Shown here one piece after another: positions 1,096 to 44,447 of a DNA stretch of 44,447 nucleotides (positions within the stretch are counted from its first letter, which is position 1; each line of letters begins with the position of its first letter). The position numbers were made by a program, and so were the translations under genes. The DNA lies in the IMG/VR virus record IMGVR_UViG_3300000553_000080, positions 1 through 44,447 of that record. One strand, given 5' to 3'. The stretch is from a virus. The notes below the pieces were generated by a model. That model saw nothing but the letters and a program-made list of their open reading frames with translations, ran no database searches and had not been told where the DNA came from.

Positions 1096-3279
1096 ATGCC
1101 AAATAATTACAAATGGTTCACGGTCAAGAATGCGGCGACTACCGAGGCGACCGACATAATGATCTATGACAAGATCGGCAAGACTTGGGTAGGTGATGAC
1201 GGCATCGCCGCAAAAGACTTCGCGGCTGCGTTGAAAGACATCCCGGTAAATAATGAAATCCTCGTTCATATCAATTCCCGTGGCGGCAACGTATGGGACG
1301 GCGTGGCGATTTACGGGATGCTGCAAGGTCGGAAAAATAAAGTGACCTGTCAGGTTGAAGGCGTGGCAGCTTCCATCGCGGCAATCATCGCTTGCGCTGG
1401 TAAGAAAACGGTTTTTCTGAATGGGGCGCTGGGAATGATTCATCCGCCATCCGCCTTGCCGCAAGACTCCATGAATGCCAGCGATTGCCGCGATCTGGCG
1501 GATAAGCTGGATGTTCACGCGCAGTCTATCGCTTCCATCTTGGCGGAGAAAACGGGAAAAACTCAGGCGCAATGTCTGGCGAAGATGAATGAAGGCGAGA
1601 CATGGATGTCTGCTGACGATGCAGTCGCATTCGGTCTGTGTAACGAAATCTCCGGCGTAACCGCCACTGCTTTTCTGAATGAAGCCAAAGCATTCGACTT
1701 TTCCAATTTCGGCAAGACACCGGATAAGCTCAAAAATATACCCGTCGTCAGCGACGACAAAACCAAAAACACAACCATGAAAAAAGAACAAGTAATTGCA
1801 TTCTTGAAAGAGAATGGCTTTGTCGTCGCCGATGATGCGAGCGATGAAGTTATCAACGCAACCCTCAAGCTGGTGAGTGCCAAGCTGAAAGTTCCTCCCG
1901 CTGCGCCGCCGCCTCCCGAGGCGGTGGATAATGCCGCGCTGAAATCGCAGCTTGATTTGATCACGGCGCAGATGACGGAACAAAAAAAGATGCGCATTGA
2001 AAATGCCGTGGCTGATTTGGTCACTAATTGCCAAGTCTCTGCCGAGGAAGCTCCAAAAGCGGTGCTGCGGGCGGTCGCTGACGAAACCTACCTTGCCGAG
2101 TTGCAGGCGCGTCCGCAGGTATTGCCGGGCGCTCCGGGATTGATTGGCAGTCCGGCAGTCATCACCAAAGACGTTTCTATCCGCAATGCCCTCAAGGAAT
2201 TGAACCTTGGGGTGTGCAACAAATCCGGGGAACATGCTTTTGGTACGGCAGTGGACCGCAGCCAAAAAGTGTCTTTGGTTTATGCCGAATCGCGCGACAA
2301 GATTCTGCCCGTGTTGAATGCGGCGGCGGTCAACACCATTGACGTGGGTTTGAAGCGCGTGTTGATCATGCAGGAAACCGTCCGCGACTTCGCTACGCGC
2401 GTTCTCCCGGCCCGGTTGTTCGCCACGATCTTCGGCAATGTGCCGTTGCAAGGTACCGACACGGTAGTGGTGCCTTACTACCCGTTGCAAGCCGCGGCCA
2501 GTCTGGATTTTGTGGATGGTGATGGCACGGGGGGTACCGGCTACCAATTTGGTCAGGGCACCAACACGAATAGCAAGACGATCACGGTCAACAAACGGAA
2601 ATTTCAACCGTTGGATTATTCGTCCAACACGTTCCGCCGGCAGCCGTACTTTGATTCGGTTCGCCTTGGGAAAATCAATGCGGAAAAACTCGGCGTGGAC
2701 ATCCTGCTTGATTTGCTGACGGTCTTCACTCCGGCAAACTTTCCGACCATTGCGCAGGCCGACCCCGCGTTCAACCCGAATTTGAACATGGCGGCGGGTG
2801 GCTACGACAGCAACCAGATCAAAGATTTGGAAACGGTGGCCACGAACTTGAATTGGCCAGACGGGGGCCGCGCGTTAATCGTCGGGACCACGCTGGATAA
2901 TGTGTTGGCCAAAGACCCGACCTACAAACTGGCGTTGAACATCGGTACCACCAGCGTGATTCAGGATGCGCAGTTCCCGAAACTGTCCGGCTTCGATTAC
3001 GCCAAGATGCCGGCATTCCCGGCCAATGGTTGTAATTTGCAAGGCATCATCGCCTTTGCTTCGGCGCTGGCGTCGGCGTTCGCACCCATTGACCCGGCGG
3101 CGGGTGTGCGGCAGCAATTGGTTTCGTATGACATCGCGACGGATTTGACGACGGGCATCAGCTTCAACCATCGCCATTGGGGTCTCGCACAGGCCGACCG
3201 CGACTTTGAAGTCATTGAGTCCGCCTATGGCTACGCGCCGATTCTGGCCCGGGCAGCGCAGTTGCTCACGCATCCGTAA
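1096..3279 (+). CDS. Head maturation protease / scaffold / major capsid fusion protein
   Basis: A 727-residue polyprotein. Residues 1-190 are a ClpP/S14-type serine protease: INSRGGNVWDGVAIYG near residue 58, catalytic Ser93 in GVAASIAA and His116 in GMIHPPS. Residues about 228-350 are charged and helical, like a scaffold or delta domain, with a Pro-rich patch (PPAAPPPPEA). Residues about 355-727 have the length and composition of an HK97-fold capsid subunit, and no other gene here is a better capsid candidate. Protease, scaffold and coat are separate genes in most phages; here there is no stop between them. An ATG at 1777 (residue 228) has the same leader style as neighbouring genes and may give a separate scaffold-coat product. 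The protease call is firm. The coat call rests on position and size. Confidence 0.8.
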   Translation: MPNNYKWFTVKNAATTEATDIMIYDKIGKTWVGDDGIAAKDFAAALKDIPVNNEILVHINSRGGNVWDGVAIYGMLQGRKNKVTCQVEGVAASIAAIIACAGKKTVFLNGALGMIHPPSALPQDSMNASDCRDLADKLDVHAQSIASILAEKTGKTQAQCLAKMNEGETWMSADDAVAFGLCNEISGVTATAFLNEAKAFDFSNFGKTPDKLKNIPVVSDDKTKNTTMKKEQVIAFLKENGFVVADDASDEVINATLKLVSAKLKVPPAAPPPPEAVDNAALKSQLDLITAQMTEQKKMRIENAVADLVTNCQVSAEEAPKAVLRAVADETYLAELQARPQVLPGAPGLIGSPAVITKDVSIRNALKELNLGVCNKSGEHAFGTAVDRSQKVSLVYAESRDKILPVLNAAAVNTIDVGLKRVLIMQETVRDFATRVLPARLFATIFGNVPLQGTDTVVVPYYPLQAAASLDFVDGDGTGGTGYQFGQGTNTNSKTITVNKRKFQPLDYSSNTFRRQPYFDSVRLGKINAEKLGVDILLDLLTVFTPANFPTIAQADPAFNPNLNMAAGGYDSNQIKDLETVATNLNWPDGGRALIVGTTLDNVLAKDPTYKLALNIGTTSVIQDAQFPKLSGFDYAKMPAFPANGCNLQGIIAFASALASAFAPIDPAAGVRQQLVSYDIATDLTTGISFNHRHWGLAQADRDFEVIESAYGYAPILARAAQLLTHP
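1777..3279 (+). other. Probable internal translation start giving scaffold-capsid alone (500 residues)
   Basis: ATG 1777 is in frame with the 727-residue gene and begins MKKEQVIAFLKENGF. Its leader, AAAAACACAACCATGAAAAA, closely resembles the true start at 3979 (AAAACACACCATGAAAAC) and at 11451 (AAAAACACCATGAAAAAT). It falls exactly at the linker between the protease and the helical domain. This would parallel lambda, where the Nu3 scaffold starts inside the protease gene C. The start is inferred, not shown. Confidence 0.5.
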
Positions 3280-3978: not shown

Positions 3979-4419
3979 ATGAAAACGATCAATAAACTCA
4001 TCATTGTCTGCGCGGCGCTTTTGGTTGCGTCGGTCACTACCAGTACCGCCCAGACATTGGCTTATGCCGGGACGCTTAACGGGGGAACGAATACGGTTTC
4101 GGCCCTGACGACCAATAGCTATCAGAACATTACGATTAACTATTCCAAATGGTTTTCTTTTCAGCCGGAATTCGCGGTGTTCAATGGGGCCAATACGGGC
4201 GCAAGCAATGTTACGTTTGTGGTGCAAAACAGCGTAGATAGCGCGGTGTGGAATACCGTGACCAACTACGTTGTGGCCGGCAATGGAACGAACATTGTAG
4301 GGCCGGTGTTTGCGGTGGATTCAGGCGGTACGCTTTATTGGCGCGTGCAGGTGCAAAACACGAATACGGTGCCGCTGACGAATGTGGCGCTGCCGTTTGG
4401 GAAACGATCTGGCTTGTAA
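3979..4419 (+). CDS. Secreted beta-rich protein with Sec signal peptide, unknown
   Basis: A 146-residue protein starting with a textbook signal peptide: MKTINK, a hydrophobic core (LIIVCAALLVASV), and a cleavage-like TSTAQ at residues 21-25. The mature part is rich in Asn, Thr and Val (TYPE of sequence seen in beta-sandwich surface proteins). It lies between head genes and the tRNA. A signal peptide on a protein in this position is odd for a virion subunit. It could be a decoration-like protein exported to the envelope, or cargo. The start is supported by the leader AAACACACCATG, shared with other genes here. Confidence 0.6.
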   Translation: MKTINKLIIVCAALLVASVTTSTAQTLAYAGTLNGGTNTVSALTTNSYQNITINYSKWFSFQPEFAVFNGANTGASNVTFVVQNSVDSAVWNTVTNYVVAGNGTNIVGPVFAVDSGGTLYWRVQVQNTNTVPLTNVALPFGKRSGL

Positions 4420-4426
4420 CTTTAAT

Positions 4427-4503
4427 CGCGGGGTAGATCAGTCAGGTAGATCGTTCGGCTCATAACCGAAAGGCCGTTGGTTCGAATCCAACCCCCGCAA
4501 CCA
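4427..4503 (+). tRNA. tRNA-fMet (anticodon CAT), initiator-like
   Basis: A complete 77-nt cloverleaf. Acceptor CGCGGGG (4427-4433) pairs with CCCCGCA (4493-4499) except for C1 and A72, the mismatch that marks bacterial initiators. The D stem GATC/GATC has the A11:U24 pair, another initiator mark. The anticodon loop CTCATAA (4459-4465) carries CAT at 4461-4463. T stem and loop: GTTGG-TTCGAAT-CCAAC. Discriminator A and an encoded CCA end at 4503. The anticodon stem TTCGG/CCGAA has a C29:G41 pair where E. coli has the first of three G:C pairs. It is transcribed with the late genes, 8 nt before the spike gene. Confidence 0.93.
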
Positions 4504-4511
4504 ACCATCAC

Positions 4512-7500
4512 ATGAAATTCATCTTGGGATTCTGTCTGTGCGCCACTGCGGCATTTTCCGCAATGGCGCAAACCAATCAAATCACCGTCAACGTCGGCGG
4601 CAACTTTGGTTTGAAATACCCCAACTGGCCGGTGAGTTGGACTCCCTTGGCGACGCAGCGGACCACTGGCGGATTGTTCGTACCGAAAGCGACTTACACC
4701 GGCTACACGGGGACAAACTTTGTGGCGACATTCACCAATGTATTTGCCGGAGATTATTTGATTTGTCTGCCAAGTAGCAAAGCGCCGAATGCAGCTTTCG
4801 TTTCATTCCGGGTATCAGTGCTGACGAACACCATTGGCAATTGGGACGCCTCGAATCTTCCATATACTCCAGCGCCGGTGACGACCGATATTTACACGGC
4901 AGAACAGATCAATGCCTTGCTCGCCGGTTTGGTACTTACCAATGGAAGCGGTTCGACTAATAATGGGCCTAGCATTACAGCATGGCAGTCTTTCACAAAC
5001 GGCAGCGCCGGGTGGGCAAATTATTTGTTGGCTTCGGATTACGCGGCTGGCTGGGGAAATTTTAACACCAATATACTTGCATCGTTTGTTAGTACAACAG
5101 CGGGGGTAGCGGTTGTAACGACTTTGCAAGCGACGGCAATTTCACCTTCGCCGGCCTCCGGCGGTAGACTGAACCTCAATCTTGGCAGCGGTTCACTCAC
5201 GGGAAATTCGCTCTCGGTCGGCAGCGGGGTAGTTTCGGGCAGCTTGGTAGCGGGAAGCTTCACCGGAGATGGTTCCGGCCTCACCGGCACATTTACCGGA
5301 ATCCATTCTGGTAATGGCAGCGGTTTGACGGCATTGAGCGGCGGCGCCATTGTTGGCGCGATTCCGCCCGGGGCACTGCCGCCAGTTGCGATAACTAATA
5401 GCGCCGCAATGAGTCCAATCCGCGCTGCCGCGTGGCAGGTCAGTCAAAACCCATTTCCGAACCTGCTTGGCGCGGAGCCTCAATACGCCTACACCGCAAA
5501 ATATCCCCTTACCATTGCGCCGGACTTGCTGGGGAACCTGATTGTCAATCCCGACAATGACAGTATTCAGGGCCAGACTTTCGCTTTTTCTACTTTCACG
5601 CCGCCGCCGGGTACCACCAACATCCTGTTGAGCGCCGCCATCGCCAGTTTGGCGGGAACTCACAGCCTGAATTTTGGCGTGTCGTCAGTTACATACCAGA
5701 GTCTGGGCTATCAATCGTACTCAGTGGGAACCACGTTCCAAAACATTACGCAAAACGGAAGTCCGGCAGACAAAAACAGCTTGTTAATACAATGCACTGA
5801 CACCTCTGGAACTTTTATAATTTCAAACCTGTCAATGGTTTTTCAGCCGACCCCAACAAATGTGGCGATGTCCAATCCGTTCACGCGCTACGAGGTTTTG
5901 AAAAACAACATCTACCCCAATTTCGGGCCCGCTACGATTAGCGCCGGGGCAACCACCTCTTGGGAATACGCCCATCAACCGGGCAGCGCCGCCTTAAAAT
6001 TCACCACCACAAGCCCAGTGCTGACGTTGGAAGCATTTGTTGGCACTGCAAACAGCCGGATTTTTTACATTTACACAAATTCGACTTATTGCCAAACCGC
6101 TTCCTGTCCGTCAACCAATTCGTACCAATGGATAGACGTTGTCGGGCTGCCGACGAATAGCGTGAACGAAGTTGAAGTGGTGAGCGGCTCGTCCACTGCG
6201 CAGCAAAATGATTCGATTGTGGCGGTTCTGGTTCCCAAACAATTCACCGTTAGATTTTATGAATATCCCATCAGCCAGAAAATCTATCTGAATGGTGATT
6301 CTATTCTGGCGTCAGTTTCGGAAACGACCAACTTTTTGCGCACCACCCGCTCAGCCATTGAGCGATTAACGGAATACACGGTTCAAAACTCAACCAGCGG
6401 CGGGGCTGAACTGTGGAACGACATGGCCCGGATTGGCTCTCGGATGAGCGACATTGGCGCGTCTGGCCCCGCGATTATCTGGAACGAATTGGGATTTAAT
6501 GACTGGTATTACAATAGTTACGGCGGAACCAATGCGTTTTGCTTGGCCTACGGCCAATATCTGGACGCGGTGCATCTGGCGGCTCCGGGCGCCATCATCG
6601 TTGCGCAAACCCCCATTGGCTCACTTCTGGATGGTACCACAGTGGGTGGCTATACTTTGGAGCAGTATCGCCAGTCAATTCGCAATGCAGCGTTTACGAG
6701 ACCGTGGGTGAATCTGGTCGAAGGTTCCACTTTGTTTCAAACGAATAATCTTAATCCTGACGGCATTCACCCCAGTCCGAACGGCGCGACACAATACGGC
6801 AAACGGATCGCGCTTTGGATCTTCAACAACTCGGTTCAGACCAATGGGCCAATTTTCAACTACGCCGGCACGTTCACCGGCAACGGCGGCGGCCTGACCA
6901 ATGTAAACGGGGGAGCCATCACCGGCACGGTGCCATTGATTGCCTTGCCGGTGGGCGTGGTGACGAACAACGCGACGGGGTTGACCCTCACCGGCACATT
7001 TACCGGAATCCATTCTGGTAATACCGACGCGACAACCAATGGCAACCGGCTTTCGCAGTTCTTCGGCAGCGGAACATCTCTGACCTACATCGCACAAGCC
7101 GGCGACATCCTTTTGGTGTATGGCCTTGATTACAACCCAGTCATCACCAATTTCAACGATGGTGTCAGCACATTTTATGGCGTGACGACGAACAACACCG
7201 GAGGCGCTTATTCGTTTTACTATGGGTACGCCTACGCAACCAATCTGTCGTCTGGCACTCGAACCATTACCATGCAGGAATCTGGCGCTGGTGGCTCGCC
7301 CACTATATTTGCCATTGTGGTTCATGGGTATAGCGTGTTGGCGACCAACACGATGACCACCAATGCTTATACCATTCCGGTCGTCGGTAGCGGTTCGTTT
7401 TTGCTGACCACCTCGTTTCAGAGATACGGTGCTTATGGCGTTCCTTCACAGCCCTGCATGGATAGCTTCAATCAACCCAAATACGTTTGGAATGCCCAAG

Positions 7501-7631
7501 CAACCTCTACTTATTGGTCAACACTGAATGCTTGGCCGCAAACTTTTGCGGGGACGAATTATATTCGGTATGCCGCGCCAGCCGGCGGTTACAACGAAGC
7601 AATTCCCCAGATGACCTACCTTTTGAAATAA
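4512..7631 (+). CDS. Secreted spike/adhesin with SGNH esterase domain
   Basis: A 1039-residue protein. A Sec signal peptide (MKFILGFCLCATAAFSAMAQ) is followed by beta-rich Thr/Gly/Ser sequence. Two GTFTG-type repeat blocks near residues 255-300 and 780-838 share a 36-nt identical DNA stretch. Between them is an SGNH/GDSL hydrolase: block I GDS at residues 595-597 (Ser597), GFND at 661-664 (Asn663) and DGIH at 750-753 (Asp750, His753). Such domains deacetylate or de-esterify surface glycans. The protein is likely a receptor-binding or depolymerising spike. The signal peptide is unusual for a tail fibre and leaves a secreted adhesin possible. The leader AACCATCACATGAAA is identical to that at 22029. 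Confidence 0.8.
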   Translation: MKFILGFCLCATAAFSAMAQTNQITVNVGGNFGLKYPNWPVSWTPLATQRTTGGLFVPKATYTGYTGTNFVATFTNVFAGDYLICLPSSKAPNAAFVSFRVSVLTNTIGNWDASNLPYTPAPVTTDIYTAEQINALLAGLVLTNGSGSTNNGPSITAWQSFTNGSAGWANYLLASDYAAGWGNFNTNILASFVSTTAGVAVVTTLQATAISPSPASGGRLNLNLGSGSLTGNSLSVGSGVVSGSLVAGSFTGDGSGLTGTFTGIHSGNGSGLTALSGGAIVGAIPPGALPPVAITNSAAMSPIRAAAWQVSQNPFPNLLGAEPQYAYTAKYPLTIAPDLLGNLIVNPDNDSIQGQTFAFSTFTPPPGTTNILLSAAIASLAGTHSLNFGVSSVTYQSLGYQSYSVGTTFQNITQNGSPADKNSLLIQCTDTSGTFIISNLSMVFQPTPTNVAMSNPFTRYEVLKNNIYPNFGPATISAGATTSWEYAHQPGSAALKFTTTSPVLTLEAFVGTANSRIFYIYTNSTYCQTASCPSTNSYQWIDVVGLPTNSVNEVEVVSGSSTAQQNDSIVAVLVPKQFTVRFYEYPISQKIYLNGDSILASVSETTNFLRTTRSAIERLTEYTVQNSTSGGAELWNDMARIGSRMSDIGASGPAIIWNELGFNDWYYNSYGGTNAFCLAYGQYLDAVHLAAPGAIIVAQTPIGSLLDGTTVGGYTLEQYRQSIRNAAFTRPWVNLVEGSTLFQTNNLNPDGIHPSPNGATQYGKRIALWIFNNSVQTNGPIFNYAGTFTGNGGGLTNVNGGAITGTVPLIALPVGVVTNNATGLTLTGTFTGIHSGNTDATTNGNRLSQFFGSGTSLTYIAQAGDILLVYGLDYNPVITNFNDGVSTFYGVTTNNTGGAYSFYYGYAYATNLSSGTRTITMQESGAGGSPTIFAIVVHGYSVLATNTMTTNAYTIPVVGSGSFLLTTSFQRYGAYGVPSQPCMDSFNQPKYVWNAQATSTYWSTLNAWPQTFAGTNYIRYAAPAGGYNEAIPQMTYLLK
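5280..5315 (+). repeat. 36-nt direct repeat in spike gene, copy 1
   Basis: Identical to 6987-7022. It encodes LTGTFTGIHSGN in both places, on either side of the esterase region. This repeat style is common in long verrucomicrobial and phage adhesins. Recombination between copies would delete the esterase domain in frame (separation 1707 nt, divisible by three). Confidence 0.9.
6987..7022 (+). repeat. 36-nt direct repeat in spike gene, copy 2
   Basis: Second identical copy of 5280-5315, after the SGNH domain and before the C-terminal beta-rich region. Confidence 0.9.
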
Positions 7632-17950: not shown

Positions 17951-18113
17951 TTTCGCCAGCAAGAAAATACGCGGGCTGGGGGATGTGGTTTATTACGCCG
18001 CCAAACCCATTGCAATGGCGAGCGATGCGGTGTTGAAAACGAATTTTCAACAATGTCCGCGCTGCAAGCGCCAGCGAGAGCACTTAAACCAACAAGTACC
18101 GTTCACGCCGTGA
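17940..18113 (+). CDS. Small CxxC protein at end of tail operon
   Basis: 57 residues from ATG 17940, overlapping the previous stop. The core is GLGD followed by a helix, then CPRCKRQREHLNQQVPF. This GLGD...C-x2-C...LN...PF layout is like a small uncharacterised protein often found after tail genes in diverse phages (from memory). It overlaps the 3' end of the convergent integrase gene by 11 nt. Confidence 0.6.
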   Translation: MRPNFASKKIRGLGDVVYYAAKPIAMASDAVLKTNFQQCPRCKRQREHLNQQVPFTP

Positions 18114-19224
18114 GTTTCCAGAATTTCTCCGCGTCTGCCGGTGACACCAAAGCGCGGTAGTGGCGAAACAGCATATCGTAATCCCCGTGGCCAAGCGCGG
18201 CCACGGTCTTTTCAACTCCGAACGCGGCAAGGCTCATACTGGCAAACGTGTGGCGCATACAATCCTGTTTCCACCCCTCTAGCAGCCCCGCCGCCTGACG
18301 CACGGCTTGAAACCGTCTCCGTAGGTTCCTTGGGGGCAAATCGCCCGCCGCCGGCCCGCAGGCGTCGCCCGCAGGGCTTCCCAGCAAATCAGCCAAAGCG
18401 GGATGAATAACGACGTGGCGGCGCTGTCGCGTCTTGGCGTTTAACCCGCGCACAAGGATTTCGCCTCCCACGTCCTGCCAATTCAGTTTCGCCGCCTCCC
18501 GTTCTGGCCGCAGGCCCGCGAACAGGCACAAGCCAACGTAGGGCAAAAGACCCGCATCTGTCGCCCGCGTGGCCACCAGCAAAGCTTTACACTGCTCCCC
18601 GGTCAAAACGTGCGGCTCTTGATCCATGTCTGCAATCCGGCGCTCGTTAATCTTCAGCACGGATGCTGCCGGGGATTCGCTTAGAAATTTCTTTCTGATA
18701 CACCAGCGAAAAAAGGTGTTCAGACTCGTGAGGTAGGCGTTATAGGTTCTGGGGTGACTCGTCGGGTGACTCGTCGGGTGAAACTGTTCTAGCCAGTCCG
18801 TTACGTCTTGGTGGCACAGGGCGGTCATTTTCCTGCCGGCACAAGTGCGGACAAAGCGCCCGACATTCGAGCGGAGTTGGGCAACCGTTCGCCGTGAAAG
18901 AAATTCCCGCTGTCGGTCGGCAATGAAATCATCGTAGGCCGCTTGGGCACGTTTGGGGATCAATTTCGCTGGCTTGTACGCGTCCAGCGCCGCCCGCAAG
19001 TTCACGCCGCGCTTTTCGGCTTCCGTCCACACCGCATAAATCTCGGCCCGCTGGGGCGCTGTTAGCGACAGCCACACTTCGCCAGCGGTATTCTGTTGGA
19101 GCCGCATTCCCTCGGCTTCCGTGTCCGCCTCCGTTCTCGTCTTGAAAAACTTCCGCACTCGTTTTCCGCCCGCCGGACACCAAGACACCATGAACCTACG
19201 CTTCCCGCGCAGAGCAACCGCCAT
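18103..19224 (-). CDS. int: Tyrosine integrase
   Basis: 373 residues with start at 19224 (MAVALRGKRRFMVSW). An upstream in-frame ATG at 19290 would read through the arm-type DNA sites at 19250-19269, so the inner start is preferred. Order: an AP2-like/SAM-like N-terminal domain, then the catalytic domain with Arg in FAGLRPEREAAKL, a Lys in the NAKTRQRR hairpin, QDCMRHTFAS (box II, with Asp-Cys-Met before Arg in place of the usual His-x-x), LGHGDY and the nucleophilic Tyr in FRHYRALV. A HPTSHPTSHP duplication is present. It catalyses recombination between attP, located upstream, and a host tRNA-Thr gene. Confidence 0.92.
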   Translation of the reverse strand: MAVALRGKRRFMVSWCPAGGKRVRKFFKTRTEADTEAEGMRLQQNTAGEVWLSLTAPQRAEIYAVWTEAEKRGVNLRAALDAYKPAKLIPKRAQAAYDDFIADRQREFLSRRTVAQLRSNVGRFVRTCAGRKMTALCHQDVTDWLEQFHPTSHPTSHPRTYNAYLTSLNTFFRWCIRKKFLSESPAASVLKINERRIADMDQEPHVLTGEQCKALLVATRATDAGLLPYVGLCLFAGLRPEREAAKLNWQDVGGEILVRGLNAKTRQRRHVVIHPALADLLGSPAGDACGPAAGDLPPRNLRRRFQAVRQAAGLLEGWKQDCMRHTFASMSLAAFGVEKTVAALGHGDYDMLFRHYRALVSPADAEKFWKLTA

Positions 19225-19249
19225 CACAGATATTTTCAAGGCGGAGAGT

Positions 19250-19269
19250 GTTGCCACTTGTTGCCACTT
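19250..19269 (+). promoter_or_regulatory. Integrase arm-type sites, left pair (candidate)
   Basis: Two tandem GTTGCCACTT copies lie 125 nt left of the attP core. The same decamer recurs on the other side at 19490-19499, with a one-mismatch copy at 19502-19511, all in the same orientation. This flanking layout is what arm-binding domains of lambda-type integrases recognise. Confidence 0.6.
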
Positions 19270-19393
19270 TTTGCAAGCAGAATACCGCATCTAGTCCGCA
19301 GCATGTCCGCGCCAAGTCCGCATGGTGTTATTTGAAAACCGACGAAACCCATTGATAAACAAGGTGAATACGCTGTTTATACTGGTGAAAGTA

Positions 19394-19438
19394 TGGAGCC
19401 AGCTGTCGGGCTTGAACCGACGACCTGCTGATTACAAA
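19394..19438 (-). other. attP: attP core: 3' part of tRNA-Thr(UGU)
   Basis: On the minus strand these 45 nt read as a tRNA from the anticodon loop to CCA: loop TTTGTAA (19438-19432, anticodon TGT), TCAGC stem half, AGGTC, T arm GTCGG-TTCAAGC-CCGAC, acceptor strand AGCTGGC, T, CCA (19396-19394). The sequence that should form the 5' anticodon stem (GCCTA) does not pair, so identity stops at the loop. This is the classic attP that restores the host tRNA on integration. Confidence 0.88.
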
Positions 19439-19489
19439 TAGGCTTACAATTAAGCGGTTTGCCAACAATTCTAGCCTTTCTCCATTTTC

Positions 19490-30846: not shown

Positions 30847-30904
30847 AATAGCTTGTATCCTTTCGCCCGAAGGTATCGATGTCGGTTTCTGTTTGAGTTT
30901 TCAT
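30830..30904 (-). CDS. Possible 24-residue peptide
   Basis: ATG 30904 overlaps the AAA+ gene's stop (ATGA) and stops at 30830, inside the Cys-rich gene. It encodes MKTQTETDIDTFGRKDTSYY and four more residues. It may only serve to couple translation. Confidence 0.35.
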   Translation of the reverse strand: MKTQTETDIDTFGRKDTSYYENQM

Positions 30905-31542
30905 GCGAGTTTGGCGTCGAGGATGGATTGCGTGTCGAGAAGGGCGGCGCGGACATTCGTACCGCAGCCGACAACGATTTGGCTGATGGTCATTTTGTTC
31001 AGGCCAAACTTGGTGAGTAATGCGGTCAGTGCTTTTTCGTCCGGTGCCTTCACGTTGAATTGCTGGAGCCGGGTTTGAAACCGTTCGTGCAGGTCCGTGA
31101 TTTTCAGATTCGACGTGCCGATGATGGCAGTCCGTGTGGGTAGCTCGTCAAGGTAGGTGAGCGTCAAGTCTTGCGACTCCATAGACATGGTGTCTAGCTC
31201 GTTGACGATCTTAACGGACCACCCCGTCGCCATGTAGCGAGCTTGTTCCTGCCATTTGCGAACAAGGTTTAGATTCACGTTGCGGCCATTCACCGATTCG
31301 ACATTGAACGATTGGCCGTTGCGGATTGTTTCCCCGGTCAGTTGGGAGGCCAGGAATTCGGCCAGTTTGGTTTTGCCAATGCCGGGCGTGCCGGTGAGTA
31401 CATATTTGAGGGATGCGGTGCGGTCGGCCATCAGAGTCTTTGCTTTGGTGGCAAAGATGCGGGCGAGTTCACGGGCCGGGCCGATGAATTCATCTGGACT
31501 TGTAGGGCAGTATTGAGCAGGTTGTATTTGCTTCGGTTTCAT
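30901..31542 (-). CDS. Small AAA+ ATPase, clamp-loader/RuvB-like
   Basis: 213 residues. Walker A GTPGIGKTK (about 49-57), a Walker B region KIVNELDTM (about 110-118, with Asn-Glu where Asp-Glu is usual), sensor 1 IIGTSN and an Arg-finger-like FQTRLQQF. A small helical lid ends the protein. The motor would remodel DNA-bound or protein partners. It is second-to-last of the leftward AAA+ genes. Its leader has ACACCTGA (31550-31557), 7 nt before ATG. Confidence 0.7.
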   Translation of the reverse strand: MKPKQIQPAQYCPTSPDEFIGPARELARIFATKAKTLMADRTASLKYVLTGTPGIGKTKLAEFLASQLTGETIRNGQSFNVESVNGRNVNLNLVRKWQEQARYMATGWSVKIVNELDTMSMESQDLTLTYLDELPTRTAIIGTSNLKITDLHERFQTRLQQFNVKAPDEKALTALLTKFGLNKMTISQIVVGCGTNVRAALLDTQSILDAKLA

Positions 31543-31618: not shown

Positions 31619-33001
31619 TTATTTTTTGCCAGACTGGAGATTTGAGTATTTTATTTTCAAGTCTCTCCTCAGGTCGAGGGTCTTGCAGTCAGCCGGGAAC
31701 GTCACGCCTTCGGGTAACGTGGTGAGACTGCTCAGGTCGAGGGTCTTGCAGTTAGCCGGGAACGTCACGCCTTCGGGTAACGTGGTGAGACTGTTCAGGT
31801 AGAGGGTCTTGCAGTCAGCCGGGAACGTCACGCCTTCGGGTAACGTGGTGAGACTGCGCAGGTAGAGGGTCTTGCAGTCAGCCGGGAACGTCACGCCTTC
31901 GGGTAACGTGGTGAGACTGTTCAGGTCGAGGGTCTTGCAGTCAGCCGGGAACGTCACGCCTTCGGGTAACGTGGTGAGACTGTTCAGGTAGAGATACTCG
32001 CACTTAGCCGGGAACGTCACGCCTTCGGGTAACGTGGTGAGACTGTTCAGGTAGAGGTACTCGCACTTAGCCTGGAACGTCACGCCTTCGGGTAACGTGG
32101 TGAGACTGCTCAGGTCGAGGCACTCGCACTTAGCCGGGAACGTCACGCCTTCGGGTAACGTGGTGAGACTGCTCAGGTCGAGGGTCTTGCAGTCAGCCGG
32201 GAACGTCACGCCTTCGGGTAACGTGGTGAGACTGTTCAGGTAGAGATACTTGCAGTTAGCCGGGAACGTCACGCCTTCGGGTAACGTGGTGAGACTGCTC
32301 AGGTAGAGGCACTCGCACTTAGCCGGGAACGTCACGCCTTCGGGTAACGTGGTGAGACTGTTCAGGTAGAGGTGCTCGCACTTAGCCGGGAACGTCACGC
32401 CTTCGGGTAACGTGGTGAGACTGCTCAGGTAGAGGTACTCGCACTTAGCCGGGAACGTCACGCCTTCGGGTAACGTGGTGAGACTGTTCAGGTCGAGGGT
32501 CTTGCAGTCAGCCGGGAACGTCACGCCTTCGGGTAACGTGGTGAGACTGTTCAGGTAGAGGCACTCGCACTTAGCCTGGAACGTCACGCCTTCGGGTAAC
32601 GTGGTGAGACTGCTCAGGTAGAGGTACTCGCACTTAGCCGGGAACGTCACGCCTTCGGGTAACGTGGTGAGACTGCGCCACACGTCTGAATACTTTTCGT
32701 GGTCTGCAAAGTATGAATCAACTTTTTTTCCGGTCAATAAAGCCTGAAGCTTTTCATAGTGGTTGCGGATTTTATCTTTCAGCTTTTCTGGGCATTCGTC
32801 GTGATTGCGAATTAGTTTTGAATCCGATGGAAACGCGCCTTCGCCATTCCATTCTGCTTCAAATACGCGAATGATTTCATTCGGTTTATTGTCCCGCCAG
32901 TTAGCGGCCTTAATCATCCCTGAGTGGGAGTTAGTTGAGTTGTGGTAAAGCTCGGCTGTTTCTCCGAGCATCCGACCAATGATTGAATGGAACGTACACA
33001 T
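31619..33001 (-). CDS. Leucine-rich-repeat protein with 16 near-identical repeats
   Basis: 460 residues. Residues 1-109 are a unique domain (MCTFHSIIGRMLGETAELYH ... NWRDNKPNEIIRVFEAEWNG), a style I associate with phage proteins of unknown role. Residues 110-445 are sixteen 21-residue repeats of SLTTLPEGVTF-(P/Q)A-x-C-x-x-L-x-L-x. The last 15 residues are basic. Repeat variation is confined to six positions (12, 14, 16, 17, 19 and 21), the pattern of a binding surface. YopM/IpaH-type LRRs are similar in length. No signal peptide is present, so it acts in the cytoplasm or on the virion. Role unknown. Confidence 0.8.
   Translation of the reverse strand: MCTFHSIIGRMLGETAELYHNSTNSHSGMIKAANWRDNKPNEIIRVFEAEWNGEGAFPSDSKLIRNHDECPEKLKDKIRNHYEKLQALLTGKKVDSYFADHEKYSDVWRSLTTLPEGVTFPAKCEYLYLSSLTTLPEGVTFQAKCECLYLNSLTTLPEGVTFPADCKTLDLNSLTTLPEGVTFPAKCEYLYLSSLTTLPEGVTFPAKCEHLYLNSLTTLPEGVTFPAKCECLYLSSLTTLPEGVTFPANCKYLYLNSLTTLPEGVTFPADCKTLDLSSLTTLPEGVTFPAKCECLDLSSLTTLPEGVTFQAKCEYLYLNSLTTLPEGVTFPAKCEYLYLNSLTTLPEGVTFPADCKTLDLNSLTTLPEGVTFPADCKTLYLRSLTTLPEGVTFPADCKTLYLNSLTTLPEGVTFPANCKTLDLSSLTTLPEGVTFPADCKTLDLRRDLKIKYSNLQSGKK
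31667..32674 (-). repeat. 63-bp tandem repeat array, 16 copies
   Basis: 1008 bp of tandem units encoding the LRR region. Long stretches are identical in all copies (for example CGCCTTCGGGTAACGTGGTG), showing recent expansion or homogenisation. Copy number is likely unstable by recombination or slippage. It is not CRISPR: units are contiguous and coding. Confidence 0.95.
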
Positions 33002-33466: not shown

Positions 33467-34954
33467 TCAGGCGGCGAGCTTGCGTCCACCCCGTTTGATT
33501 TCTTCCGGCGCGCTGGCGGACATGGCGCGGTTGGCGAGGCGCTTGCGGCGTTTCTCAATCACGTCGGCCATCAGTACGGAGGTCGGCACGAACGTCTTGG
33601 CGACGGTGACTGCATCCTTCATGGACGGTTCCCGTTTGGCGTTGAAGGCGACCGTCATTGCCTTTATCCAGACTTGTTCAATCTGCCGGCCAGAGAAACC
33701 CTCAAGGGCGGCGGCGATTTCCGGCAGGTCGAATCCCTTGGCTTTGCGGCCATACTTTTCGATCTGTATTTTCAGGATGGCTTCGCGCTCCGCTTGGTTC
33801 GGCAGGTCAACGCTCCAGACATCGAGCCGGTCAATTAGCGGGTCGGGTAATCCGTCAATGTCATTCGCGGTGAAAACAAAGAAGATGTTTTCACCGTTGA
33901 ACTGCATGTCTTGCAGGATGGCCTTAATGACGCGGGCGGTCGTGCCGCCGTCCGTCTTGCCGGACGACTCGCTACCGGCGAACAATCCGTCCACTTCGTC
34001 AATCCACAGAACACAAGGCGCGACAGCCTTGGCCGTTGCAAACGCCGTCCGCCAGTTGCGCTCCGATTCACCGACGAGCGAGCCGAAGATTTTGCCGGCT
34101 TCAAGTTTCAAGAGCGGTAGGCCGAACACGGAGGCGCAGGCTTTGGCACACAGGCTCTTGCCCGTGCCGGCCTGTCCGCAGTAGAGTTGCCCGCGTGGCG
34201 TAGGCAGACCATATTCACGAGCGGCTTTGCTGAACAGGTTGCGCTTCATGTTAAGGTCGGCCTTTAAGATTTCTAAGCCGCCGATGTCGTCCAACGTGAT
34301 CTTGTCGGTGACGATTTCGAGCAACCCGTTTTTCTTGACGGTGTTGGATTTCTCACGGGCGACGATGGCCGGGAGAACGTCCTTTGCTTCGATGATGGAT
34401 AGGGCGTAGGCATTTTCCGCTTCGGTGGATGTCAGTCCGCCAGCGGCATCCAATACTTCATCGGTGTGACCGTTGAGGACTACGCCGTTTTCTTTGGCAA
34501 TCGTTTGCAGGATGACATGCAGTTGTTCCCGGTTGGGCAAGCGATGTTCAATGACGGTGATTTCTTTTTCGAGTTCGGGCGGCAGTTTTAACTGACAGCC
34601 GACGATGACGATAACCCGGTTGGAATTTTTGCCGATGGCTAGTTGATCGCGCAACTTGCGGAACATCAGCGGGTTGACATCCGCCAGCATCAGATGAAAG
34701 TCACGCAAGAGGATGATGGTTTTCTCACCCAGCTTCGGCAGCGAGTCGAGCATGGTGAAAGGGTCGTTTGAATCAGCGACTTCCGATTCGCCAGCCTGAT
34801 TCATAATCCCTTCGGTGATGGACCACCAATACAGTTTGAATTTTGTTTCGGTGGCGACGGCGAGCATTTCTTTTTCGACCCGTTGCTCTTCGTGGCTGAC
34901 GATGTACAGACCGGAGTAACCAGCGCGGACGTAGTTGGCAATTTGATGTTTCAT
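33467..34954 (-). CDS. Ycf46-like AAA+ ATPase
   Basis: 495 residues. The N-terminal domain (YVRAGYSGLYIVSHEEQRVE and FKLYWWSITEGI) matches the start of Ycf46 proteins of plastids and cyanobacteria. The C-terminal motor has IGGLEILKADL, Walker A GQAGTGKS (about 260-267), Walker B CVLWIDEVDG (about 312-321), sensor FVFTANDIDGLPDPLIDRLD with Arg finger, and a basic tail. Ycf46 is a FtsH-related ATPase without a protease domain, function poorly known. In this operon it sits near the DUF2997 and DUF1257/Ycf35 genes. Leader ATACCTGA at 34965-34972. Confidence 0.82.
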   Translation of the reverse strand: MKHQIANYVRAGYSGLYIVSHEEQRVEKEMLAVATETKFKLYWWSITEGIMNQAGESEVADSNDPFTMLDSLPKLGEKTIILLRDFHLMLADVNPLMFRKLRDQLAIGKNSNRVIVIVGCQLKLPPELEKEITVIEHRLPNREQLHVILQTIAKENGVVLNGHTDEVLDAAGGLTSTEAENAYALSIIEAKDVLPAIVAREKSNTVKKNGLLEIVTDKITLDDIGGLEILKADLNMKRNLFSKAAREYGLPTPRGQLYCGQAGTGKSLCAKACASVFGLPLLKLEAGKIFGSLVGESERNWRTAFATAKAVAPCVLWIDEVDGLFAGSESSGKTDGGTTARVIKAILQDMQFNGENIFFVFTANDIDGLPDPLIDRLDVWSVDLPNQAEREAILKIQIEKYGRKAKGFDLPEIAAALEGFSGRQIEQVWIKAMTVAFNAKREPSMKDAVTVAKTFVPTSVLMADVIEKRRKRLANRAMSASAPEEIKRGGRKLAA

Positions 34955-40161: not shown

Positions 40162-40863
40162 ATGGCTAATAAAAAACCCGACCCGGAGCAAAAGAATCCC
40201 GCGTCCACCCCGCCGCCGGGCGTAGTGGCGACGGCGAGTAATTCTGGTATCACGAAGGAGCAGGCCAAAAAGATTCTTACCTCTGATCTAACCAACATGG
40301 TGAAGAAAGTTGCCAGCGGTAAAATTCTGGCGACGCAAGAGCGGTTGTTACTCCAGCAAATTGCGGATGGAGCCGGCGGCTCCCCAGAAACCCTGCTGCC
40401 GAAGTGGGCTGACAATCAGGTGAAGCTGGCGCAAATGCTAGGGGTCACGCGCAAGACGATTCAGCGATGGTTGAAAGAGCCAGACAATCCGGGCGCGGCA
40501 GAAAATGGAAAGCTGGAGGTAGCCAAGTGGAAAGCCTACGCGAAATCAAAGGGACATGAATTCCCAGATGATGACGGAGCCGGCGGCAAGGCATCCAGCG
40601 CGAAAGCCGAGCAGATTCTTTTGCAGAATGAAAAGCTGCGGGACCATCTTTTCAGGTCACGAGAGGAATTGATTCCCAAGGTGATGGCCAAGCAGGTTTT
40701 TTCCAAGCTGTTGCTATCGGCCAAGTCCCGGACTTTTACCAGTGTGAGCCGACTGGTGATGTTGGCGCGGATGGCCCCGGACACGGCGACGGCGGCAGTG
40801 GAGATTCAAAAGGAACTCACTTCAATCTGGAAAGCATTGGAGGATAGTAAATGGCTAAAATAG
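40162..40863 (+). CDS. Terminase small subunit
   Basis: 233 residues. An N-terminal Pro-rich segment, then a HTH (QVKLAQMLGVTRKTIQRWLK, about residues 92-111) for recognising the packaging site, and a helical C-terminus (EILLQNEKLRDHLFRSREE type) for contacting the large subunit. Directly precedes and overlaps the large-subunit gene by 13 nt. Longer than lambda Nu1 but of the same layout. Confidence 0.75.
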   Translation: MANKKPDPEQKNPASTPPPGVVATASNSGITKEQAKKILTSDLTNMVKKVASGKILATQERLLLQQIADGAGGSPETLLPKWADNQVKLAQMLGVTRKTIQRWLKEPDNPGAAENGKLEVAKWKAYAKSKGHEFPDDDGAGGKASSAKAEQILLQNEKLRDHLFRSREELIPKVMAKQVFSKLLLSAKSRTFTSVSRLVMLARMAPDTATAAVEIQKELTSIWKALEDSKWLK

Positions 40864-42740
40864 TTCTCAATCTTGAGGACTGGAAAGACGCGGAAGCGGA
40901 GTTTGCCGCCTTTCTTTCGGACCTGTGTTCGCCGCCGGACATGGAGCCAACCGAAGTTTGGGCGGAACGAAATGTCACCGTGCCGGATGGCCCGTTCGCA
41001 GGCAGTAATTGGCGAGTCCAATTCACCCCGTTTGCAAAATTCATTTTTGCCGCCATGCGGACGCCGGGGATGAAGCGGGTAGTCATTCAAATGTGCGCCC
41101 AATACGTCAAAACGACGGCGCTGTTTATTGATTTTCTCCGCAACGTCAAAGAGGACCCGGCAGATACCATGTGGGTTATGGCGGAGGCGGACCATATGAA
41201 TGAATTTATCCCGAAGCGGTTGATGCCGTACATCGAAGGATGTGAGCCGGTGGCAAAGCTGCTACACGGGCGAAGCAAGGGGCTGGTGCAATTCGAGGGA
41301 ATGAATCTCTTGCTGCGGGGTTCAAACTCGCGGGCAAAGTTGCAATCTGACCCTATCCGCCGAATTTACTGTGACGAGCGCCGGGAGTGGAAAAAAGGGA
41401 GCATTGATTTGCTGCGGAAGCGGATGCGGACATTTCCAAACTCGCTGGAAATTTCGGCGGGGACGGCGGGGAACGAGGGCGACGAATTGCACACCGATTA
41501 CATGGAGGGGACACAGACACGGGCGCATTATCATTGTCCGAAGTGCAACCACAGTCAGCCGATTCGATTTGGCCGGGAGGCTACAAGTCTCTGGCCCAAG
41601 GCGCGGGAGGATGGCGGCTTTCGTTGGGACACGAACGAGGAAACGAAACCCAAAGGGGTATGGAACTACACGGAGGTAGCGAAGACGGTTTATTTTGAAT
41701 GTGAAAACCATGAATGCAAGCACCGCATCACCAACGCTGATAAATACGAACTCATTCGCACCATGCATACACACGACTATAACCCGACCGCATCGCCGGG
41801 CTACGCCAGTTTCAGCGGTTGCGCCTTTGAAGCCGTTTGGGAATCCTGCGATTGGGACAAGCTCGTCGTGGAATTTCTTAAAGCGGTTGAGCAGGCAAAA
41901 GGCGGCAACCCGGAACCTCTAAAGGCATTCATCACCGAAACCCTGGGTGAGCCGTGGCAGGACCGGCTGGGGGTGATCGAAGATGCCGGATTCTTAGAGG
42001 CCCGAAAATTCAACTACGCCTACGGGGAGGTATGGCCGGAAGCCAAGCGCCGGTTCATCTCAGCCGACGTGCAGGAAAAGGGCGGCGTGCATTATCCGTA
42101 TGTGATTCGGGAATATGGAGACTTTGGAAAAAGCCGGCTCGTGATGCATGGGACCGCACGGACACTGGCCGAACTGCAAACCATCCGTAATGATAATAAA
42201 ATCGGCCCGACATCGGCGCTGATTGATTCGGGTTTCAAGGCCCAAGAGATTTACCGTTTCTGCCTTGCATCCAACTGGAAGGCATTCAAGGGGGAGAGCC
42301 GCGATTATTTCTTAGTCACCAAACCGCATCCGAGCAATCCGGCGGTGAATATGACCGCCCGACAGATTTGGAATCGGACGGTGGCCACCGTCTATAACCC
42401 GCAGACACGGGCGCGGGTTGCCACCATCCCGCTGTACATGCACTGCAACGATGCCACGAACGATTTGCTCGCCGAATACATGACGGGGTTGCTGGGCGAA
42501 TGGACGCTGCCAGCCGAAACGGCAAAAGATTACATCCTGCAAATGGTGGGAGATGTTCGCCGGGAGGTCGTGGATTCTCGCGGGGTAACAAGTTACAAGT
42601 GGTTCACGGTGGGACCGAACCACATGCGAGATTGCGAGCGCAACATCCTGATTGCTGCCATCATCACCGGCATTCTCGCCCCGCCGCCGCCCCCGAAAGT
42701 GGTGAGCAAGGACGCCGAAAAACCCGCCGCCAAAAGTTGA
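40851..42740 (+). CDS. terL: Terminase large subunit, lambda gpA family
   Basis: 629 residues. ATPase part: a variant Walker A (QMCAQYVKTTALFIDF), Walker B RRIYCDERREW and a coupling SAGTAGNEGD. A C-x2-C/C-x4-C zinc-like insertion (HCPKCNHSQP, CENHECKH) is followed by the nuclease domain with catalytic Asp in FISADVQEKGGVHY. gpA-type enzymes usually cut at cos sites, so cohesive ends are expected; no cos was identified. Stop codon lies in dispersed element copy D. Confidence 0.92.
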   Translation: MAKIVLNLEDWKDAEAEFAAFLSDLCSPPDMEPTEVWAERNVTVPDGPFAGSNWRVQFTPFAKFIFAAMRTPGMKRVVIQMCAQYVKTTALFIDFLRNVKEDPADTMWVMAEADHMNEFIPKRLMPYIEGCEPVAKLLHGRSKGLVQFEGMNLLLRGSNSRAKLQSDPIRRIYCDERREWKKGSIDLLRKRMRTFPNSLEISAGTAGNEGDELHTDYMEGTQTRAHYHCPKCNHSQPIRFGREATSLWPKAREDGGFRWDTNEETKPKGVWNYTEVAKTVYFECENHECKHRITNADKYELIRTMHTHDYNPTASPGYASFSGCAFEAVWESCDWDKLVVEFLKAVEQAKGGNPEPLKAFITETLGEPWQDRLGVIEDAGFLEARKFNYAYGEVWPEAKRRFISADVQEKGGVHYPYVIREYGDFGKSRLVMHGTARTLAELQTIRNDNKIGPTSALIDSGFKAQEIYRFCLASNWKAFKGESRDYFLVTKPHPSNPAVNMTARQIWNRTVATVYNPQTRARVATIPLYMHCNDATNDLLAEYMTGLLGEWTLPAETAKDYILQMVGDVRREVVDSRGVTSYKWFTVGPNHMRDCERNILIAAIITGILAPPPPPKVVSKDAEKPAAKS

Positions 42741-43169: not shown

Positions 43170-44447
43170 AAAATACTCCAGCTACCTTTAATCGTGCCGT
43201 ACTGCCGCCGCGTAGGAATGAAGCGTTACGGCATTTGAAACTGCCGCGCTCTGGCGTCACGATTGAAAACTTTTACGAGGCTGGCCGGCGCTTCCAGTTG
43301 GGGGACCGAACCAACATTTGGAGTTTTACGACGGATGCCAGATTTGACGCGAATCAGGCGACGCGGCTGGAGCTAATGCGCAAGGCGCGGTACTTCGAGC
43401 AAAATTGTTCGCTGGTTCAGGCGTTGGCGGATGTCTTCGAGCAATACGTCGTCGGTGCCAATGGTCTAATCTTGTCTCCCAATGGGGACAACGAAAGTTG
43501 GACCGCTCTGGCGAAACAGTATTTCGATGAATGGAGCGTGTACCCGGACTTGACCAGCTTGCAAGACTGGCCTTGCCTGCAAGGGTTGATTGCGCGGACA
43601 TGGTTTATTGACGGGGAAGTATTTCTCATAAAGACGCGCGGCGACACGGCTCCGTTTCGCCCGCGGCTCCAACTCATTGAAGGGCATCGCGTCGGCACCC
43701 CGCCGAACATGGCCGGGGAAGAAGGCCGAACCATTATTGACGGCGTGACGATTGATTCCAAGGGCCGGCCAACCGGGTATTGGATGCAAACGGGCTTGGA
43801 CATGGAGACGTACACATGGGTTGACGCCGCCAATGTGATTCACGTGTTTGAGCCTACTCGCGTGTCAATGTATCGGGGGATAACTCATTTCTACGCCGTG
43901 CTGAATCTGATGCACGACATGGACGATTTAGCCCGGTGGGAAATGGCCAAGGCGAAAGAGGCGGCGGACACAACGGCCATCATCAAAACGCCAACGGGAG
44001 AAGTACTCGACGAGGCAGCGCAGTTTGACGCGAATCAGGAAAACTTGGATGCCCTGACGACCTACAATCTAGGCGCGCAAAACCCGCTGACGGAGTATTA
44101 CCAGCGCGTCTTTGGACCAACCAAGAAGGTGATGAAGATTGGCGACGAGTACGATGTACCGACGCCGAACAATCCGACCGCATCGCAGCAATGGTATTGG
44201 CGCTACATTGCCGAACAGATTTGCAATGGCGTTGGTATCGCCATCATTCTGATTTACCCCGAATCAATTCAGGGGACAGTTTATCGCGGCATTCTCGATA
44301 AGCAGAATTCGCAGTTTCGCGCCCGCTCCGCCTTGCTCGCCTCGAAGTTCAAACAGGTTTGGATTTACGTCATCAGCACTGGCTCGAGCCAAGATCGCCG
44401 GATTGCAAATAAGCCCCAAGATTGGACCAAGCTGGCAGTCCGCCCGC
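43166..44447 (+). CDS. Portal protein, N-terminal part (continues at base 1)
   Basis: The true portal start, ATG 43166, overlaps the previous stop. The first 160 residues (NFYEAGRRFQLGDRTNIWSF, LELMRKARYFEQNCSLVQAL, IDGEVFLIKTRG) precede the overlap point at 43646 and join in frame with base 1. After that the sequence duplicates 1-802. GARR-like N-terminus, clip and stem elements fit the lambda portal family. Confidence 0.9.
   Translation, partial: MKNTPATFNRAVLPPRRNEALRHLKLPRSGVTIENFYEAGRRFQLGDRTNIWSFTTDARFDANQATRLELMRKARYFEQNCSLVQALADVFEQYVVGANGLILSPNGDNESWTALAKQYFDEWSVYPDLTSLQDWPCLQGLIARTWFIDGEVFLIKTRGDTAPFRPRLQLIEGHRVGTPPNMAGEEGRTIIDGVTIDSKGRPTGYWMQTGLDMETYTWVDAANVIHVFEPTRVSMYRGITHFYAVLNLMHDMDDLARWEMAKAKEAADTTAIIKTPTGEVLDEAAQFDANQENLDALTTYNLGAQNPLTEYYQRVFGPTKKVMKIGDEYDVPTPNNPTASQQWYWRYIAEQICNGVGIAIILIYPESIQGTVYRGILDKQNSQFRARSALLASKFKQVWIYVISTGSSQDRRIANKPQDWTKLAVRP
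43646..44447 (+). repeat. 802-bp overlap with window start (circular genome)
   Basis: Exact copy of 1-802. It begins and ends inside the portal gene, so it reflects linearised circular assembly. Removing one copy gives 43,645 bp. Confidence 0.95.

Follow-up and report, generated by a model that had tools for sequence, protein, structure and literature searches.

A single tRNA gene with a CAU anticodon lies inside the head-tail gene run of the phage analysed here, which raises the question of whether this phage carries an initiator tRNA of its own and what such a tRNA could be for. Few tRNAs are as constrained as initiators, and the pair at 29:41 in the anticodon stem of this one is unusual.

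A tRNA gene in the structural region of a temperate phage

The window (the whole stretch of DNA analysed, 44,447 nucleotides) is a viral record with an exact direct terminal repeat of 802 bp at 1-802 and 43646-44447. The join of its ends is crossed by a relative, L002, in which the repeat is present as a single copy, so the genome amounts to about 43,645 bp and is closed in the assembly. The genes found include a portal, a head maturation protease/capsid fusion (1096-3279, plus strand), which served as synteny anchor, a GpA-type terminase large subunit (40851-42740, plus strand), which served as query for finding relatives, a tail fibre, a holin, DnaB and a tyrosine integrase (18103-19290, minus strand). 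This gene set, integrase included, identifies a temperate tailed phage.

The tRNA gene occupies 4427-4503 on the plus strand. ARAGORN calls one tRNA-Met(cat) with exactly these ends, the sole tRNA of the window, and the Rfam model RF00005 gives it 67.1 bits (E 1.3e-12), where 29 is the gathering score. Minimum-energy folding yields the cloverleaf minus pair 1:72, at -24.5 kcal/mol; its z-score is just -1.7, so that folding energy by itself is weak evidence for a tRNA. The gene is tightly packed between its neighbours. A 7-nt leader, CTTTAAT (4420-4426, plus strand), separates it from the stop codon of the upstream ORF, and an 8-nt spacer (4504-4511, plus strand) links its CCA to the ATG of the next gene. 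TTAAT likewise stands immediately 5' of the tRNA in the relatives L475 and L476. The upstream ORF (3979-4419, plus strand) has a signal-peptide-like N-terminus and is weakly similar to its positional counterparts in L475 (E 2e-5) and L476 (E 0.003), while the downstream ORF (4512-7631, plus strand) is tail-fibre-like and matches phrog_5240. Between 3200 and 4800 of the window, no promoter or terminator was found above chance.

Identity marks place the tRNA among the initiators

Read pair by pair, the acceptor stem contains C1xA72, G2:C71 and C3:G70 and is followed by an encoded CCA. The D stem contains A11:U24 and U12:A23, and the anticodon arm is formed by U27:A43, U28:A42, C29:G41, G30:C40 and G31:C39 with the loop CTCATAA. 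The marks named earlier for an initiator (the C1xA72 mismatch, A11:U24, the CAT anticodon and the encoded CCA) are therefore all present. In the counts of a survey of 9917 bacterial CAU tRNAs, comprising 4438 initiators, 2762 Met and 2717 Ile2 tRNAs (PMC5143459), A11:U24 occurs in 4430 of the 4438 initiators and in none of the Met (0/2762) or Ile2 (0/2717) tRNAs, and CxA at 1:72 occurs in 3392/4438 initiators compared with two Met and one Ile2 tRNA (3/5479 elongators). Together, the two features assign the phage tRNA to the initiators and not to Met or Ile2; the scoring as an elongator that the earlier note had posed as the opposing outcome thus turned out as initiator by the survey's pair frequencies. 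Moreover, G2:C71 and C3:G70, described as formylation aids (PMC7949028), are both present. The sequence therefore strongly supports an initiator at 4427-4503. The phage tRNA shares with the E. coli-type tRNA-fMet the 1:72 CxA, G2:C71, C3:G70, A11:U24, CAU, G30:C40, G31:C39 and the templated CCA, and differs from it in having C29:G41 in place of G29:C41 and in being phage-borne between structural genes.

An elongator-type anticodon stem

In the survey's list of initiator stems (positions 29-31,39-41), GGG,CCC is found in 3849 genes, AGG,CCU in 522, AGG,UCU in 34 and GGG,UCC in 18, together 4423 of 4438 (PMC5143459). The CGG,CCG stem of the phage tRNA occurs there in 0/4438 cellular bacterial initiators and is a leading elongator stem, with 869 Met and 974 Ile2 genes, so the phage tRNA joins an initiator body to an elongator-type stem. 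This stem is what would favour reading the gene as an elongator Met or a lysidine-type Ile2 tRNA; that reading is nevertheless very unlikely, since the phage tRNA lacks the paired 1:72 and the C11:G24 of those classes and instead carries A11:U24, seen in 0/5479 elongators of the survey, and a CxA 1:72 seen in 3/5479 (PMC5143459).

Of the three G:C pairs expected at G29:C41, G30:C40 and G31:C39, the phage tRNA keeps the latter two and has C:G at 29:41. The earlier claim that C29:G41 breaks the usual GGG/CCC stem is borne out, and this pair is the most unusual part of the tRNA. The three-GC feature is common and not universal, given its 522/4438 AGG,CCU initiators in the survey (PMC5143459) and a host phylum without G29:C41 (0/194 genomes, see below), and the phage tRNA is accordingly filed as a variant initiator. 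Its stem is properly compared with that of the host phylum's own initiators, which carry A29:U41.

The 16S residues A1339 and G1338 are reported to contact pairs 30:40 and 29:41 of the P-site tRNA; a flip of 30:40 loosens the 16S grip, and the contact of G1338 is made with the 2'-OH of base 41 (as described in PMC11497404). Given its absence from all 4438 cellular initiators of the survey (PMC5143459), CGG/CCG could impair use in the P site. G30:C40 is retained in all four phage lineages compared below, and the variation falls elsewhere in the arm. A flip of 29:41 is probably milder than one of 30:40, and hosts with A29:U41 already tolerate a non-GC pair there. E. coli is able to live on unconventional initiators resembling those of some Mycoplasma and Rhizobium.

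Initiators of the host phylum

A capsid relative of 67% identity lies in a Verrucomicrobiales MAG (G001). Together with the tRNA-Thr attachment matches described below, this makes Verrucomicrobiota a well-supported host assignment, at phylum level. The A29:U41 (AGG/CCU) initiator pattern was found in 171 of 194 Verrucomicrobiota genomes (G001 to G197), the G29:C41 pattern in 0/194 and the C29:G41 pattern in 0/387. The remaining stem pairs and some of the D arm are held constant in these patterns, and initiators of other types fall outside the counts. AGG,CCU was already on record as a minority type, so its use across the phylum is a detail and not a discovery. The A29:U41 pattern is present in a single copy in 161 of the 171 genomes, where collapsed repeats in MAGs are possible. 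The anticodon arm 27-43, TCAGGCTCATAACCTGA, is identical in 66 of 74 host initiators from 70 loci, all of them retrieved with the window tRNA as the similarity query. Position 1:72 is often UxU in the fetched Verrucomicrobiota initiators.

The comparison with the host initiator called for in the earlier note gives 84% identity to Verrucomicrobiota initiators, for example that of G001 (L133). The acceptor stem of the latter is the same as in the phage tRNA, whereas the host has the stem AGG/CCU and the D-stem pair G12:C23 and the phage CGG/CCG and U12:A23. Relative to G001, the changes in the anticodon stem stay paired, with 28:42 going from C:G to U:A and 29:41 from A:U to C:G. Within arm 27-43, the distance to the nearest fetched host initiator is four bases for the window tRNA, three for L474, three for L475 and one for L476, and the window tRNA has seven further differences from that host outside the arm. 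A second, divergent initiator with a U31xU39 mismatch is present in one host genome (L455 18171-18247, contig C87 of G193) and may be prophage-borne.

Conservation among related phages

The terminase scan yielded nine loci, seven at least 61% identical and two just 23%; neither of the latter has a tRNA. Among contigs with a terminase of at least 61% identity, six reach the site (the window, L002, L472, L474, L475 and L476), and each carries a lone CAU tRNA with A11:U24, a 1:72 mismatch and CCA. L002 and L472, the latter on the same contig as L003, belong to the window's own lineage, so that the sample comprises four lineages, a small number (window, L474, L475 and L476). L473, on the contig of L004, and L477 stop short of the site and show no tRNA. 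The 1:72 mismatch is CxA in the window, L475 and L476 and UxU in L474, and G2:C71, C3:G70, G30:C40 and CCA are common to the four. The anticodon arm differs among them: C29:G41 in the window, a C31xA39 mismatch in L474, C:G at 27:43 with U:G at 28:42 in L475, and C33 in the loop of L476.

Between the window and L472, one of 77 tRNA bases differs, and the following ORF is 79% identical over its first 178 aligned residues. L475 and L476 have another major head protein (phrog_247), and their tRNA still lies between structural-region genes; they share the gene 3' of the tRNA with each other (47%). The capsid-only relatives L005 and L126, which have no terminase match, contain no such tRNA. In 387 Verrucomicrobiota genomes, the only prophage found with a close terminase is that of G221 (E 2.6e-91, 31% identical), and the 19 kb fetched there contain no tRNA.

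Initiator tRNAs in other viruses

Phage-borne initiators have a record going back to T5, whose tRNA-fMet appears in a 1975 title; they are also described in cyanophages (PMC4810235) and in a huge phage (PMC10747093). The earlier view that they are rare holds for cultured phages, where at most 77 of 50,697 deposited records match the tRNA over at least 80% of the query. It is less apt for IMG/VR, where the A29 and G29 initiator patterns each have at least 120 matches on contigs that can hold host flanks, and the T5 title takes from rarity its value as novelty. The C29:G41 pattern is found there in 14 stretches with 12 distinct tRNAs, two of which represent the window's lineage, and some of the 14 have a paired 1:72 or no CCA. 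Flanks of at most 40 nt on both sides are not a general viral rule among the matches listed (0/14 C29, 2/105 A29 and 7/113 G29 loci, many of them cut by contig ends).

BLAST matched 219 deposited phage records, many of the weaker matches being tRNA-Lys cross-hits and not initiators; among 40 rows spread across the set, many are such cross-hits from mycobacteriophages. From 30 records hand-picked for variety (loci L483-L512), 23 initiator-type tRNAs were counted, leaving out EBPR2, R6L, B1VFA, Philippe, ZS04 and RHph_X66 (mixed types) and MT835577 (no ARAGORN call). Their stems are UGG/CCA (8), AGG/CCU (8), GGG/CCC (3, two from records marked UNVERIFIED), AGU/GCU (2), AGC/GCU (1) and GGU/GCC (1). 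Thus 20 of the 23 are without the GGG/CCC stem and 19 without G29:C41, and 12 fall outside the four cellular stem types listed in the survey (PMC5143459). U29:A41, frequent in these phage initiators, is absent from that survey's initiator list. As the set includes several close relatives, was gathered with a C29 query and stands uncompared with its hosts, this trend is a lead and not a proof. The initiators of T5, cyanophages, large Caulobacter and Vibrio phages and Mycobacterium phage Myrna are likewise phage-borne and often lack G29:C41; many of those fetched sit in tRNA arrays of large phages, whereas here a lone gene is carried by a small temperate phage.

We tentatively suggest that phage initiators as a class may be freed from the cellular three-GC rule, keeping A11:U24 and G30:C40 with stems that are almost never used in the initiators of cells. 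The CGG/CCG of the window might then be an extreme case, selected to escape an enzyme that reads the arm or to alter start-site or subunit-joining checks in favour of the phage. In the open-licence PMC literature, nothing was found on departures of phage initiators from the three-GC rule or on initiator tRNAs of Verrucomicrobiota phages.

Six fetched phage CAU tRNAs (L486, L487, L488, L489, L504 and L507) show the opposite hybrid, an initiator-like CxA at 1:72 with an elongator-like Y11:R24. In R6L and ZS04, such a tRNA directly follows the terminase gene. In the prophage Streptococcus phage Javan74, a lone initiator-type tRNA that lacks annotation lies next to the small terminase gene (L509 301-373).

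Possible roles of the phage initiator

From the identity marks, position, conservation and host comparison, we infer that the tRNA is probably a functional phage initiator used in the P site. It would be transcribed within the head-tail late mRNA, cut at its 5' end by RNase P and processed at its 3' end at the templated CCA. Charged with methionine and formylated, it would enter the ribosomal P site and, in late infection, raise or replace the pool of initiators in hosts whose phylum mostly shows a single initiator gene. Initiator abundance is reported to affect initiation fidelity in E. coli (PMC7949028), and an initiator copy on a replicating phage genome among late genes could raise the supply a good deal. 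The chance that the benefit lies in dosage or replacement seems about even. The earlier note had treated late genes without a Shine-Dalgarno as a special feature, which found no support: in a test using simple four-letter words, mechanically chosen ORFs and one host genome, Shine-Dalgarno-like words precede 6 of 45 phage ORFs (shuffled 14%) and 4 of 34 host ORFs (shuffled 15%), background in both. With no enrichment in phage or host, missing Shine-Dalgarno sites give no clue to the role of the tRNA.

Alternatively, the phage tRNA might replace a host initiator that a defence enzyme, such as a VapC-like nuclease acting on the anticodon arm, has destroyed or modified, with its changed arm being resistant. 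VapC cleavage of initiator tRNA and changes of phage tRNAs near cleavage sites are described (PMC10264068), and it would fit this role that the host arm is nearly frozen (66/74) while the phage tRNAs are one to four bases off. The published evasion changes, however, fall in the loop at the cleavage site, whereas the window loop is unchanged from that of G001 and the phage changes lie in the stem; the same source describes phages as generally avoiding tRNA-fMet where VapC targets it (PMC10264068), and the seven differences outside the arm also speak against this possible, rather doubtful, role. A defence scan of 10 window ORFs gave IetA-like, HNH and weak PDC-type matches, none tied to tRNA. 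Less likely still, the tRNA fold would persist chiefly because its processing divides the late mRNA into a head and a tail portion. The close packing (7/8 nt upstream/downstream in the window, 9/7 in L475 and 7/6 in L476), the same place in all relatives and the missing promoter or terminator would fit this improbable role, yet any tRNA would serve it, while initiator marks and CCA are kept in all four lineages; in L474, moreover, 92 nt separate the tRNA from the next ATG, that of the large tail ORF.

The phage is temperate and has an integrase, and the tRNA could for that reason be taken as an attachment-site remnant or as part of tRNA-dependent lysogeny. The integrase, however, adjoins an inferred attP core of 46 nt (19394-19439, minus strand) that corresponds to the 3' portion of tRNA-Thr(UGU) genes in the hosts. 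Among 387 genomes of the host phylum, 14 contain this stretch with 1-2 mismatches and none contains it exactly; in G210 an integrase-like ORF reads directly beside such a tRNA-Thr half. About 13.6 kb separate the initiator gene from the integrase. Since the tRNA-Thr half adjoins the integrase, an attachment-site origin of the initiator was rejected, and the chance of this whole reading is very slight. The tRNA-dependent lysogeny described in PMC10865867 likewise combines a temperate phage, a tRNA gene and a tRNA-targeted integrase. Its att core of about 10 bp does not rebuild the tRNA, whereas the inferred 46-nt core here, running through CCA, would; in addition, the att tRNA here is Thr(UGU) and the phage tRNA CAU fMet.

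As a natural initiator with an elongator-type stem, in a phage whose hosts have A29:U41, the functional initiator favoured here could readily be used to test what the ribosome requires at 29:41. It also offers a test of whether phages carry initiators for dosage or to survive tRNA-directed defence.

Other features of the window

A 63-bp unit is repeated 16 times (93% matches) at 31668-32676, within a minus-strand ORF at 31619-33001. This ORF is flanked by two AAA ATPases on the minus strand, at 33467-34954 and 30901-31542, the former of which has a PADLOC match (E 3e-23) to IetA, a member of a defence pair.
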